Assembly: GCA_003021305.1 (NCBI GenBank)
Contig: PXQN01000090.1
Location: 50,598 to 83,446, forward strand
DNA length: 32,849 nucleotides
DNA from: Halobacteriales archaeon QH_10_67_22
GTDB lineage: Archaea > Halobacteriota > Halobacteria > Halobacteriales > Haloarculaceae
Reading direction: 5' to 3'
Both the position numbers and the translations under genes were made by a program. Numbering within the stretch: position 1 is the stretch's first letter; each line of letters opens with the position of its first letter. The notes under the pieces are model-generated. The model saw nothing but the letters and a program-made list of their open reading frames with translations, did no database searches and was not told the origin of the DNA. Shown piece by piece: positions 6,001 through 15,099 of this stretch.

Positions 6001-8202
6001 TCACTGACCGACAGTCCACCTGACGATGTCCTCGGGCGAGGCTTCGGATTCGGAGATCCCGAGGCGGTAGAGCATCGCCTGCTTGTTCGCAGTGTTCGCC
6101 CCGTCGGGGTAGTCCATGACGACGAGCGCCTGGTTGCTGGGCATGACGAGCTGGTTGCTCCCGTCGAGTTCGACGTTCGGGTTGGACTTGATGCTTCCTT
6201 CGAGATTCTCCTGCCAGAAGGTCGTCTCGTCGGAGCTGAGTTCGCTACTGATGTCGTCCCCGTCGGTGTAGACGGTGATATCGTCGGGCTGGACCTCGGT
6301 GTCTTTGTCGCTGAAGTCGGTACAGCGCACTACCTGGTAGGCTTTGCCCCCGTCCGAGCGGAAGATGTCGGTGCCCCGCCACGCGTCACACTGGTAGGTC
6401 GACGTGTTGAACTGGATCGTCTCGTCGTCGGCGAGCCTGAACGAGTGGGAGAAGCCGGACGGTGCGGTCGGGTCGTTGACGTTGAGGAACTGATTGCCGT
6501 TCTCGACGGCCGATTCGATGTCGCTCGTGTCGCCCGGGATGTCGGGCGTCAGTACGTCACCGGCCGCCGTCGAGACGTTGGTCGTGGTCGGCGTCCGGGC
6601 GATCTGTTCGCGGCTCTGGGTGTCCTCTTCGATATCCTGGAACACGGCGTCGAGTTCGTCCTGGTTCTCGGCGAAGTAGTATTCGCCGCCGGTTTCGTCG
6701 GCCATGTCCTGCAAGACCCCGTCGTCGACGTCGCTCTCGTCCGAGCCGAACCCGACGGTGTAGATCGTCGTGCCCATGCTGTCTGCGGTTTCCGCCCGGT
6801 CCCGGGCTGCATCCTTGGGGCCCGGCGAGTCTTCGTGCGTGTCCCAGTTCAATTTCCCATCAGTGAGGAAGACGACGACCCGCTCGCGCGTCGGGTCGCT
6901 GTGCGTGTGCATGAGCGTGTTCGCCCACTTGACACCGGCCGCGCCGTTCGTTCCCCTGCGAGGCTCGGTATCTTCGACCGTGTCGTTGAACGCGTCGAAA
7001 TCACTCGTAAACCGTTCACCGTTGGCGTTGAACTCGTAGATCCACGCCGACGCTCCAGGCGTGGTAAAGTCTGGATTCCCGTAGATATCGGAGTAGCCGA
7101 CGAGTCCGACCCGGTTCCTGCTCTCGTTGAGCGACCCGGCGAAGTTCTGTGATGCCTCCCAGACAGCCTCCGTTCTGTTGTCCGCGTCGCCGGCGACGCT
7201 CCCACTCATCGAACCCGACTCGTCGACGACGAACACGATGTCCCGCTGCGTGCCCGCTTCACTCGCTTGGGCGATCTCCCTGGTCTCGCCGATGTTCATC
7301 TGTCCTTTGGCCAGTGGTTCGACGAAGGCGCTGTACTCTCTCCCCAGGCCTTTCGAGACGCGGATGGTGTTCTTGTCGATCTCGACGGTGTCCATGTAGG
7401 GCGCACCGCTGAAGTCGATCACGGCGTTGCGCTCGTCGTCGGCCCGGCGGGGGAGCTGGTTCTGGGCGACGAACACGGAGACGTTACGGCCGTCGCGGCG
7501 CACCTCGATCCCGGGGCGGTCGGCGCCGAACTCCTCGCGGAGGTGGGACTCCCACCCGTCGGCGAAGTCGCTGGTAACGTTGATCGTCACGTTGTCCGGG
7601 CGGTTGCAGTCGCCGCTGACGACCGTCGCCGACCGTTCGGTCGATTCCTGCTCGGAGCTGGTGGCGTTGTAGAACGCCTGGTTGCGGGCGTTCGAAACCT
7701 CGCCGGTGAGGTTGGTCACCTCGACGTCGACGCTCCCGTTGCGAAAGCGGACGCTGGGTGGCGTCTGCATCGCGCTGCCGTTCTCGTGGACGTGACCGAC
7801 CCAGACGCCGCCGGCCTCGTAGGCCACCGTCTGGCCCTCGTTGTTCTGGTAGCGAACCGAACTGAGCGGGATCTCGGTCCTGCAGTCGCCGTCCTCGTTG
7901 ACGGTGACGTTCAGCGACCCCGACCGGACGACTTTGGCGTCGTTGTTCTCGAGTTGTGCCATCGAGAGTGACCCGACTTTCGAGTCGTCGCCCCGCGTCA
8001 GCGTCGTCACCTCGGCGTCGACGTTCTCCATCACGAGTTTCGACTGTTCGTCCGCCCGGTCCTGCTGGACTTCGGTTATCGCACTCGACCCCCCGTACAG
8101 CACGAACAGGGCGAGCGTGAAGACGAGGGCGATCACCAGTATCCCACCGATGATCCCCATCTGTCCACGCTCCCCCTGCGTGGAAACCCGACCCCGTATC
8201 AT
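6001..8202 (-). CDS. VWA-domain membrane-anchored surface protein (DUF7289-like by recollection)
   Basis: GERGQMGIIGGILVIALVFTLALFVLYGG TM; MIDAS motif DIVFVVDESGSMSGS; VVFLTDGKLN; FGSDESDVDDGVLQDMADETGGEYYFAE. Confidence 0.85.
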   Translation of the reverse strand: MIRGRVSTQGERGQMGIIGGILVIALVFTLALFVLYGGSSAITEVQQDRADEQSKLVMENVDAEVTTLTRGDDSKVGSLSMAQLENNDAKVVRSGSLNVTVNEDGDCRTEIPLSSVRYQNNEGQTVAYEAGGVWVGHVHENGSAMQTPPSVRFRNGSVDVEVTNLTGEVSNARNQAFYNATSSEQESTERSATVVSGDCNRPDNVTINVTSDFADGWESHLREEFGADRPGIEVRRDGRNVSVFVAQNQLPRRADDERNAVIDFSGAPYMDTVEIDKNTIRVSKGLGREYSAFVEPLAKGQMNIGETREIAQASEAGTQRDIVFVVDESGSMSGSVAGDADNRTEAVWEASQNFAGSLNESRNRVGLVGYSDIYGNPDFTTPGASAWIYEFNANGERFTSDFDAFNDTVEDTEPRRGTNGAAGVKWANTLMHTHSDPTRERVVVFLTDGKLNWDTHEDSPGPKDAARDRAETADSMGTTIYTVGFGSDESDVDDGVLQDMADETGGEYYFAENQDELDAVFQDIEEDTQSREQIARTPTTTNVSTAAGDVLTPDIPGDTSDIESAVENGNQFLNVNDPTAPSGFSHSFRLADDETIQFNTSTYQCDAWRGTDIFRSDGGKAYQVVRCTDFSDKDTEVQPDDITVYTDGDDISSELSSDETTFWQENLEGSIKSNPNVELDGSNQLVMPSNQALVVMDYPDGANTANKQAMLYRLGISESEASPEDIVRWTVGQ

Positions 8203-9345: not shown

Positions 9346-9525
9346 ATGGGGTTCGGGAGCTACGACGAATCAGAACAAGACAACCAGGAGTACGACGCCG
9401 ACCTCGACGATGAAGACGGCCTTTCGACGGCACAAAACACACACGATGGCGACGTCGAATACACGTTCGACGCGTCGAACGACGAACTGCTCGATAGACT
9501 CGAGGAAATAAAAGAGAACACGTGA
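9346..9525 (+). CDS. DUF5786 family small acidic protein (59 aa)
   Basis: Not in ORF track. MGFGSYDESEQDNQEYDADLDDEDGLSTAQNTHDGDVEYTFDASNDELLDRLEEIKENT matches the haloarchaeal MGFGSYDESEQ...GDVE..ASNDELLD.LEEIK family. Confidence 0.88.
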   Translation: MGFGSYDESEQDNQEYDADLDDEDGLSTAQNTHDGDVEYTFDASNDELLDRLEEIKENT

Positions 9526-10088
9526 AAGCCGGGGTTCGGGCCCTCGGCGTGGCCGAGTCGTATCGCGGCGACGAAAGCACCCTCGCGGGCGCGGTCGTCC
9601 GGGCCAGCAGGGTCGTCGACGGTTTCGTTTTCGGGACCTGTACGGTCGGTGGCACCGACGCGACGGAGACAGTCCACTCGCTGGTCGAACGGCTGGACCG
9701 CGCGGACGTCCGGTATCTCCTCTGTGCGGGGGTCGCGCCCGCGTGGTTCAACCTGCTGGACCTCCCCGCAATCTACGAGCGGGTCGACCGCCCGGTGCTG
9801 TCGGTCACGTTCGAGGAGAGTCCCGGCCTGGAATCGGCGCTCCGCGAGGCCTTCGACGGGCCGGCGCTGGACGAGCGACTCGCCACCTACCGGCGCCAGC
9901 CCGACCGCCGCCCGGTGACGGTCAACGGCGAGCGCGTGTTCGTCCGGTCGGTCGGCGTCGAGGACGACGCGGCCGCGGACGTCGTTCGCGGGTTCACCCC
10001 CGAGGGCGGCCGACCGGAACCGCTCCGGGTCGCTCGCCTCGCCGCCCGCGCGGCCGACGAGCGGTTCGTGGGCGACACCGACGCCTGA
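9522..10088 (+). CDS. DUF99 family protein (endonuclease dU-like)
   Basis: GTG start in GTGA overlap with the DUF5786 stop; GVAESYRG...VDGFVFGTCTVGGTDAT...YLLCAGVAPAWFNLLDL. Confidence 0.88.
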   Translation: MKAGVRALGVAESYRGDESTLAGAVVRASRVVDGFVFGTCTVGGTDATETVHSLVERLDRADVRYLLCAGVAPAWFNLLDLPAIYERVDRPVLSVTFEESPGLESALREAFDGPALDERLATYRRQPDRRPVTVNGERVFVRSVGVEDDAAADVVRGFTPEGGRPEPLRVARLAARAADERFVGDTDA

Positions 10089-10195
10089 TACGGTCGTGCG
10101 TACTTCTTTTGATTCCCACGAAACAGAACACTGTCTCCGTGGTCCGAAACGCCGATCCTCACCGACACTGCCGAAATTGGGTACGCACGACCGTA
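10089..10195. mobile_element. MITE-like element, copy A, with ~15-bp terminal inverted repeats
   Basis: TACGGTCGTGCGTAC...GTACGCACGACCGTA; inverted homologue of 13537-13643; TGA flanks both sides. Confidence 0.7.
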
Positions 10196-10383
10196 TGACC
10201 CGGGCGCGCGACGAGTGTGTGCCCCGAAGGCGTGAAGACCGTGCTCCGAACGGAGTGTCGAGTTTCTCCCGTTTCGGTCTCGACTGTGCCCACAGTCGGG
10301 TAGCCAGCGGCTACCGGGTGCCCGACCGGGGAGGTTTTGCCGCCGGGCCACCCACATCCGACCATGACCGAGGAGCGTCGCCC

Positions 10384-10974
10384 GTGACCCCCGAGGTGGA
10401 CGGGCTCGACGTCGTCGCCTGCGAGCACTGCGAGCGGCTGTGTGCTTCCCGGAGTCGCATCGTCAACGGCGTCGGTCCCGCCGACGCGGACCTGCTGTTC
10501 GTCGGGGAGGCACCGGGCGCGAACGAGGACGAGGCGGGCGAACCGTTCGTCGGGCGGTCCGGCGACGTCCTCGACGACGCGTTGCGTGCGGCCGGACTGG
10601 ACCGGGCGGACGTGCGCATCACCAACTGTGTGCGCTGTCGCCCGCCGGACAACCGCGACCCGCGGGCCGACGAACTCGACAACTGCCGGGCGTTCCTCGA
10701 CCACGAGGTCGACAGTGTCGACCCCGAGGTGGTGGTCCCGCTGGGCAAGGTCCCGGCCGAACACCTCCTCGGCCGGGACGTAGCGGTGACGAGCGAGGCC
10801 GGCGACGTCGTCGAGGCCGACATCGGCGAGACGAGACGACGCGTGTTGATCTCGGTCCACCCGGCGGCCACGCTGTACGACCGCTCACAGGCCGACACCT
10901 TCGAGCACACTATCGGGCGGGCCGCCGACTTTACCGACGGCGAGAGCGGCCAGGCCCGCCTGGGCGATTTCTGA
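10384..10974 (+). CDS. udg: Uracil-DNA glycosylase, Fe-S family-4/5-like
   Basis: LFVGEAPGANEDEAGEPFVGRSG; CEHCERLC and NCVRCRPP...DNC cysteines; SVHPAA motif. GTG start chosen; exact start uncertain; track start at 10096 runs through copy A. Confidence 0.9.
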   Translation: MTPEVDGLDVVACEHCERLCASRSRIVNGVGPADADLLFVGEAPGANEDEAGEPFVGRSGDVLDDALRAAGLDRADVRITNCVRCRPPDNRDPRADELDNCRAFLDHEVDSVDPEVVVPLGKVPAEHLLGRDVAVTSEAGDVVEADIGETRRRVLISVHPAATLYDRSQADTFEHTIGRAADFTDGESGQARLGDF

Positions 10975-12720: not shown

Positions 12721-13536
12721 ATGGCACGGGGCAGGACGCGGTCGCTGGCGCTCGTCGCTGTCGCGGCGGCAACGGTCGTCGCGGGGTGTGGCGCGCTCGG
12801 CGGCGGGTCGGTCGAGACGGTGACGCCGGCGCCGGTGCCGACCGACGGGGTGGCCTATCCGCCCGGTGTCGCCGCCGACGGCGTCTCCCCGGCGAGAGTC
12901 GCGAACGCCCACGAACGGACGCTCCTGACGACGAACTACACGGTGAGTAGTCGCCGGGCGGTCGTCGGTCCGAACGGGACCATGCGGACGACCAACCGCA
13001 CCCGGACCGTCGCCGCCGGCGGGGAGACGTACGCCGGGCGGTTCGACCGGACGGTGGGGGATTCGCCGCTGGCGACGCTCCCGCTGACCCTGGAGTACTG
13101 GACGAACGGGAGCGTCTACGCCAGCCGGGAGTTCGTCTCCGGTTCGCCCGAGTACTACGGCTGGTCGCAGGGCGACCGGGCGACCGAGGACGTCGACTAC
13201 TCGACGGTGCTGACCCGGACGTTCGACGCAGTCGACGTGCGAGTCGCCGACCGGTCGGCCGACGGGGTGGTGCTCGTCGGGTCGCGACTCCGGCGTCCCG
13301 ACCGCCTCCCCAACCAGCCCTACCTGACCGACCCGCGCAACGTCTCGCTGACCGCCCGCGTCACCGACGACGGCGTCGTCTCCCGCTGGCGACTCGCCTA
13401 CGACGCGACGGTCGCCGACCGACCGGTCCGCGTCGTCTGGCGGATCACGGTCGCGGATGTCGGGACCACGACGGTCGACCGACCCCCGTGGGTCGATACC
13501 GCAAAAGAGTGGGTCCGGATGCGCCGCGCGGGCTGA
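12721..13536 (+). CDS. Haloarchaeal lipoprotein (DUF7537-like by recollection)
   Basis: Signal and lipobox MARGRTRSLALVAVAAATVVAGCG; secreted Thr/Asn-rich body; stop TGA abuts element copy B. Confidence 0.8.
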   Translation: MARGRTRSLALVAVAAATVVAGCGALGGGSVETVTPAPVPTDGVAYPPGVAADGVSPARVANAHERTLLTTNYTVSSRRAVVGPNGTMRTTNRTRTVAAGGETYAGRFDRTVGDSPLATLPLTLEYWTNGSVYASREFVSGSPEYYGWSQGDRATEDVDYSTVLTRTFDAVDVRVADRSADGVVLVGSRLRRPDRLPNQPYLTDPRNVSLTARVTDDGVVSRWRLAYDATVADRPVRVVWRITVADVGTTTVDRPPWVDTAKEWVRMRRAG

Positions 13537-13643
13537 TACGGTTGTGCGTAACTAATTTCTGCAGTGTCAGTTCGGATCGGCGTTTCGGACCACGGGGACG
13601 GTCGTCTGTTACGTGGGCACAAAAAGAAGTACGCACGACCGTA
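13537..13643. mobile_element. MITE-like element, copy B, inverted relative to copy A
   Basis: TACGGTTGTGCGTAA...GTACGCACGACCGTA; reverse complement aligns gap-free to copy A (about 92/107 by hand count); TGA flanks both sides. Confidence 0.7.
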
Positions 13644-13680
13644 TGAGGCTCCGGCCCTCGGCCGGACGGTGACGGCCCGC

Positions 13681-14958
<1,278 letters not shown>

Positions 14959-15099
14959 GTCCCCGTCTTTCTCGGTGGGGACTAAATGACTGCCGTTTTC
15001 CGAGAACTCTTTTTCCGGTGACACGCCGGCCGGCGGGGCCCAGCGGTCCCCGGTCGGGCGGTCGGCGGGCTTTAGTCGCGTGACACCCTACCGGACGGT

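Follow-up and report, generated by a model that had tools for sequence, protein, structure and literature searches.

ERIC and Correia elements, two examples of intergenic repeats of bacteria, are approximately 100 to 150 bp long, harbor inverted ends, are present in many copies, and contain no gene. In the archaeon Haloquadratum walsbyi, the SMR-A elements (HqIRS42, HqIRS43, and HqIRS55) have been described as inserting, without duplication of the target, into palindromes situated near the termini of PATE and IS605-type elements, and their mover was qualified as "enigmatic" (2011, PMC3119063). A later answer on the mover of haloarchaeal small mobile repeats was not found in the open-access papers searched. 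The IS1031 subgroup of the IS5 family includes MITEs with an exclusive 3-bp TNA duplication, TGA being one of the reported sites (PMC12016507). In eukaryotes, the PHIS superfamily (PIF/Harbinger, NuwaII) generates 3-bp duplications of the TWA or C|TNA|G type (PMC4482050). Here, we describe small elements that insert at TGA in a haloarchaeon. Neither their ends nor insertion into TGA stop codons in archaea was found to have been described previously in the open-access papers searched.

Two inverted copies at TGA stop codons

The window, i.e. the whole stretch of DNA that was analyzed (32,849 nucleotides), contains two copies of the same element, designated A and B (Table 1). A repeat finder paired positions 10078-10201 and 13531-13654 as inverted arms of 124 nt displaying 84% complementarity. 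Alignment of the two copies revealed 15 differences in the 107-bp core (86% identity). These results agree with the sequence-only reading, which had reported an inverted pair of 113-bp copies with 86% identity; the coordinates of copy B (13534-13646) are exact and correspond to TGA, 107 bp, and TGA. When the whole window was scanned blindly for inverted repeats flanked by TGA or TCA, exactly copies A and B were retrieved, and no others. The same reading had assigned both TGA stop codons to lipoprotein genes. This assignment holds for copy B, since the gene encodes a DUF7537 lipoprotein, but not for copy A, which follows a gene encoding an endonuclease dU (PF01949). The genes flanking A and B are unrelated, indicating that the pair does not originate from a larger segmental duplication, an origin that had been put forward as an argument against dispersal.

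Table 1. Features of the window associated with copies A and B.
Feature	Position	Strand	Comment
Endonuclease dU gene (PF01949)	9522..10088	+	Stop codon is the target of A
TGA, left target duplication of A	10086..10088	+	Serves as stop codon for endonuclease dU
Copy A, same element as B	10089..10195	+	Inverted relative to B
TGA, right target duplication of A	10196..10198	+	
Lipoprotein gene (DUF7537)	12727..13536	+	Stop codon is the target of B; lipobox VAGC by sequence inspection
TGA, left target duplication of B	13534..13536	+	Stop codon of the lipoprotein gene
Copy B, non-coding 107-bp element	13537..13643	-	Length and ends shared with about 60 other copies; 86% identity to A
Left terminal inverted repeat of B, TACGGTTGTGCGTA	13537..13550	+	One change relative to the consensus
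Right terminal inverted repeat of B; the minus strand reads TACGGTCGTGCGTA	13630..13643	-	
TGA, right target duplication of B	13644..13646	+	
Isocitrate dehydrogenase gene	13681..15072	-	Far side of B; convergent with the lipoprotein gene

We propose, with a probability of about 0.85, that copy B is a gene-less MITE or small mobile repeat that entered the lipoprotein gene at its TGA stop codon. The elements display short terminal inverted repeats, more than 100 copies, a 3-bp target duplication, and a near-absolute preference for TGA. Apart from a known autonomous partner, they have the features of MITEs, namely a length (107 bp) too short for a transposase, 14-bp terminal inverted repeats, a target-site duplication, and interiors that diverge between types. 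Preservation of the left TGA leaves the host gene with an intact stop codon, which makes the insertion nearly harmless.

In the vicinity of copy A, the endonuclease dU gene (9522-10088) is followed by a gene of the uracil-DNA glycosylase superfamily (10384-10974), and the gene order is the same in G139, a genome of the same genus. These genes possibly form a uracil-repair pair that is now split by copy A.

Copy number, ends, and target of family 1

The host genome is a 2.5-Mb draft comprising 94 contigs, with a completeness of 77%. It contains about 130 to 160 copies of the family of A and B, hereafter family 1. A first look with copy A as the query led to 158 candidates, and the 40 candidates that were scored all displayed 93 to 100% identity. 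The end repeat TACGGTCGTGCGTA, with at most one mismatch, matched the host genome 255 times, versus once for a reversed-pattern control. Dispersal, which had been suggested on the basis of two divergent copies, is therefore strongly supported and involves more than 100 copies. The lack of further copies in any haloarchaeal genome, which had been envisaged as a refutation, was not observed, since copies are present elsewhere in haloarchaea.

Among the 69 paired family-1 copies that were read, 65 had a length of 107 or 108 bp. The triplet TGA or TCA was identical on both sides in 57 of the 69 copies, for a chance expectation of about 2e-4 per copy. Six copies combined one TGA flank with one TCA flank, and the remaining copies had one damaged end or other flanks. 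The flanking triplet was independent of the orientation of the interior and hence belongs to the target.

Insertion was directly documented at locus L064, where one family-1 copy (1341-1447) lies inside another. The usual sequence of the host copy at this site is GGTC(C/T)GAAACGCC, and its TGA variant occurs in L006. The ancestral sequence was therefore known: GGTC-TGA-AACG was converted to GGTC-TGA-[107]-TGA-AACG, the filled site reading GGTC-TGA-[107 bp]-TGA-AACGCC, i.e. a 3-bp duplication.

The 14-bp terminal inverted repeats were kept in nearly all of 56 family-1 copies. In contrast, the 22-nt centre thought to be invariant, which is indeed identical in A and B, varied over the 56 copies, the constant part of the element being its ends. 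For the same copies, the consensus structure generated by RNAalifold was limited to 14 end pairs, and no pair was altered on both sides. Rfam provided no match in the region. In a few types of 78 bp (see below), a short hairpin is retained in the interior and shows some double changes, but the covariation term was close to zero. Thus, a covariance analysis of homologous copies, as had been recommended, revealed no covarying helices, recovered nothing but the terminal repeats in family 1, and lent no support to the proposal that the core is an RNA or a protein-binding site. We read these elements as DNA elements, not RNA.

Residual or composite copies were also observed. Single 14-bp end repeats are present between two TCA triplets (L082:4006-4019) and between two TGA triplets (L212:1504-1517). 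They look like the products of a loss of the interior between short CGTA repeats of the two ends. In L233 (from position 2702 onward, reverse complement) and L260 (near position 6094), truncated elements are joined to another palindromic repeat, of the GGCTGTGTCATGGC..GTTGGGACGGCAT type, which is perhaps PATE-like.

Other families, distribution, and search for the mover

Families 2 and 3 of the host genome have no sequence similarity to family 1 and yet obey the same TGA rule. Family 2 has ends TACTGTCGGACACAAG (212 end matches versus 0 in the control) and is mostly 109 bp long; family 3 has ends TAGTGATTATTGT and a length of 80 bp. A blind scan for identical TGA or TCA flanks combined with 13-bp inverted ends was performed on 343 kb of the host genome, consisting of stretches picked for carrying families 1 and 2, and retrieved 103 elements versus 0 in the control. 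Their lengths were restricted to 80 and 107-109 bp, except for one element of 158 bp. Copies of family 2 are nested within family 1 (L052) and family 3 (L346) by the same process, and families 3 and 1 form chains with a common TGA (L058 and L059).

The flanks of family 2 are more diverse. Identical non-TGA triplets were found on both sides of certain copies (TTA/TTA and CGG/CGG). One-sided differences of a single base recur (TCG/TCA and TTA/TCA, three times each, and TGA/CGA, twice), beyond the expectation for random mutation. A minority of the copies have TA outside both ends in place of TGA or TCA (L346:646-754, L030, L099, L343, L353, and L354). In L346, where family 2 is inserted in family 3, comparison with the known host sequence points to a 2-bp duplication of TA. 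Two targets may be used by family 2, TA being the second.

Outside the host genome, the pattern TSA-TAC(G/T)GTCG(G/T)RCRYA was found in 24 of 394 Halobacteriales genomes, belonging to 18 genera, versus one match overall for the control pattern. A GTDB scan provided, among the matches listed, Halostella pelagica, Natronomonas sp. LN261, Salinibaculum litoreum, Halobellus inordinatus, drafts of Salinirussus and Halovenus, and several Halobacteriales drafts. A blind scan of 730 kb of carrier loci revealed 77 elements flanked by TGA or TCA, versus at most 5 for any other trinucleotide. About 27 types were distinguished in these loci: 12 types measured 76-80 bp and 14 types measured 106-109 bp, whereas the lengths 65, 68, and 100 bp were each represented by a single type. 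Even though this sample was drawn with one end sequence, it contained the further ends TAGTGATTAGTGC, TACTGGTGGCTGT, TACTGATTGTTGT, and TAGTGTTTATCAC. Only the TA(C/G) start, the inverted character of the ends, and the flanking TGA were constant over all types. The element belongs to a widespread and apparently unnamed group, the members of which nearly always insert at TGA. Family 1 was absent from G139, the one other genome of the same genus that was compared, and the relatives of both host genes (lipoprotein and endonuclease dU) end without an element in this genome. These observations indicate that family 1 spread recently in the host lineage.

Across all types, lengths fall at 76-80 and 106-109 bp, with almost none between and unrelated interiors, a step of 30 bp. 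The existence of two preferred lengths 30 bp apart suggests that the spacing of the ends is constrained by the mobilization complex. More speculatively, the elements might form an order-wide superfamily of archaeal mini-elements, with about 10 end types, about 27 interiors, and two lengths of about 78 and 108 bp, inserting at TGA via an unrecognized transposase or recombinase that travels without matching ends, the 30-bp step reflecting a ruler in a nucleoprotein complex that pairs the ends. We regard this extended proposal as tentative and rather doubtful.

Searches of several kinds for a transposase ORF with matching ends, the presence of which had been proposed as a check, did not reveal one. 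No long autonomous element with these ends was detected in the host genome, in the 394 Halobacteriales genomes, or in 91 GTDB stretches from the matches listed. The search covered some transposase families, including PF01609, PF13340, and PF13586. None of the PF01609 (DDE_Tnp_1) loci read from ten carrier genomes had these ends, and the two PF01609 transposases of the host genome are unrelated to the elements. The IS1031-type domains PF13340 and PF13586 were absent from 14 carrier genomes, the controls being positive. Phage and plasmid collections provided no match; matches of the ends in viral contigs had no paired end, were attributed to chance, and were not associated with a long element. 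Unpaired ends in the host genome and in GTDB records corresponded to truncated or mutated copies with no transposase inside. A transposase tail at a contig end (locus L063) was also discarded, as the corresponding insertion sequence has unrelated ends, GCTCTATTGAAAATG; L063:1756-1853 is the terminal part of this IS5-like insertion sequence, which is truncated by the contig end and measures about 930 bp in relatives. Since the host draft is 77% complete, the mover could be located in the missing part.

Mode of insertion and relationship to known systems

In the proposed mechanism, an enzyme supplied in trans would bind the 14-bp ends and cut the target at TGA with a 3-nt stagger. Gap repair would duplicate TGA, as in the case of DDE transposases acting on TNA targets. 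The DDE step is proposed by analogy only, as none of the PF01609 loci read had these ends and PF13340 and PF13586 were absent from the 14 carriers. A TGA generated by one insertion can take the next one, leading to chains.

The mixed TGA/TCA flanks of six of the 69 family-1 copies are at odds with a simple 3-bp duplication. They are naturally explained by conservative site-specific recombination, in which a circular form would carry a 3-nt coupling sequence and the flanking triplets would originate from the target and the donor. This unlikely mechanism also fits the family-2 flanks differing by one base (TTA/TCA, TCG/TCA, and TGA/CGA) and the fact that a DDE partner was not found in the carriers searched. 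However, when L064 is compared with its ancestral sequence, one TGA has been gained and the host sequence is intact on both sides, and the identical TTA/TTA and CGG/CGG flanks of family 2 are those predicted by duplication. In addition, mixed flanks can arise by recombination between copies. The fact that every end begins with TA, together with the family-2 copies displaying TA outside both ends, could be taken to indicate an IS630/Tc1-mariner relative with CGG/CTG as the true end and TA as the target duplication. This is highly improbable, since it leaves the identical outer TGA or TCA triplets unexplained and is contradicted for family 1 by L064, in which the element entered GGTCTGAAACG. This target contains no TA and TGA is duplicated, excluding a TA duplication for family 1. 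A duplication of the latter type is possible for the minority of family 2 only.

The position of the elements raises a separate question. Insertion exactly on an in-frame TGA stop codon was found for 35 of 65 testable family-1 copies, 20 of 39 family-2 copies, 12 of 20 family-3 copies, and 31 of 69 copies in other genomes, counts that rest on a simple codon-usage gene finder. Stop codons represent only 19 of the 147 TGA or TCA sites of the window that are non-coding or stops. This difference would be accounted for by a conserved regulatory RNA or bidirectional terminator retained at the 3' ends of genes, as would the few copies located between two convergent genes with stop codons on both sides. 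Such a role is very unlikely because about half of the copies occupy other intergenic positions, the elements occur in either orientation with respect to the gene (13 same, 21 opposite), corresponding sites in the same genus have no element, copies are nested and chained, and neither inner covariation nor an Rfam match was found. For mobile elements inserting at TGA, active targeting of stop codons was considered as the main cause of the excess and rejected. The excess is strong relative to all non-coding TGA or TCA sites but only about 1.5-fold within the intergenic regions hit (67 observed versus 45 expected for four sets), in a test that conditions on regions already hit and relies on a crude gene finder. 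Thus, the position at stop codons is mainly a by-product of TGA targeting. The excess mostly results from the compactness of the genome and the purging of insertions in genes, with a possible modest preference for stop codons in addition. As the duplicated triplet restores the stop, the stop codon is the TGA best able to tolerate an insertion. The elements also illustrate how a parasite can spread throughout a compact genome and do little damage, since it copies the codon that it breaks.

The elements described here are available as hundreds of defined copies that follow an exact target rule and fall into two strict length classes. They also provide natural proof of insertion from an empty site, and their known carriers include several nearly closed genomes. 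Together, these data make the search for the enzyme concrete.

Comparison with known systems reveals partial similarities. ERIC and Correia elements are reported to duplicate TA, whereas TGA is duplicated here. The 3-bp duplication and the C preceding TGA in about 70% of insertions are reminiscent of the PHIS superfamily, the comparison with these eukaryotic elements being limited to the target logic. The IS1031 subgroup fits the target rule best, since its MITEs generate a 3-bp TNA duplication, as do the present elements (TGA or TCA, rarely TTA), but the ends differ (ISLrh, GAACCTGTCTAGTATCT) and the 14 carriers searched have no IS1031-type transposase domains. SMR-A is the closest known system, both in its biology and in its missing mover. 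As in SMR-A, the elements are about 110 bp long, non-coding, and present in high copy number, have prominent inverted ends unrelated to known transposons, and form several families that have no sequence similarity and one common target habit. In contrast to SMR-A as described, they duplicate 3 bp and target TGA sites, about half of which are gene stops. Since SMR-A elements insert without duplication at palindromes of other mobile elements, we do not claim membership of this group.
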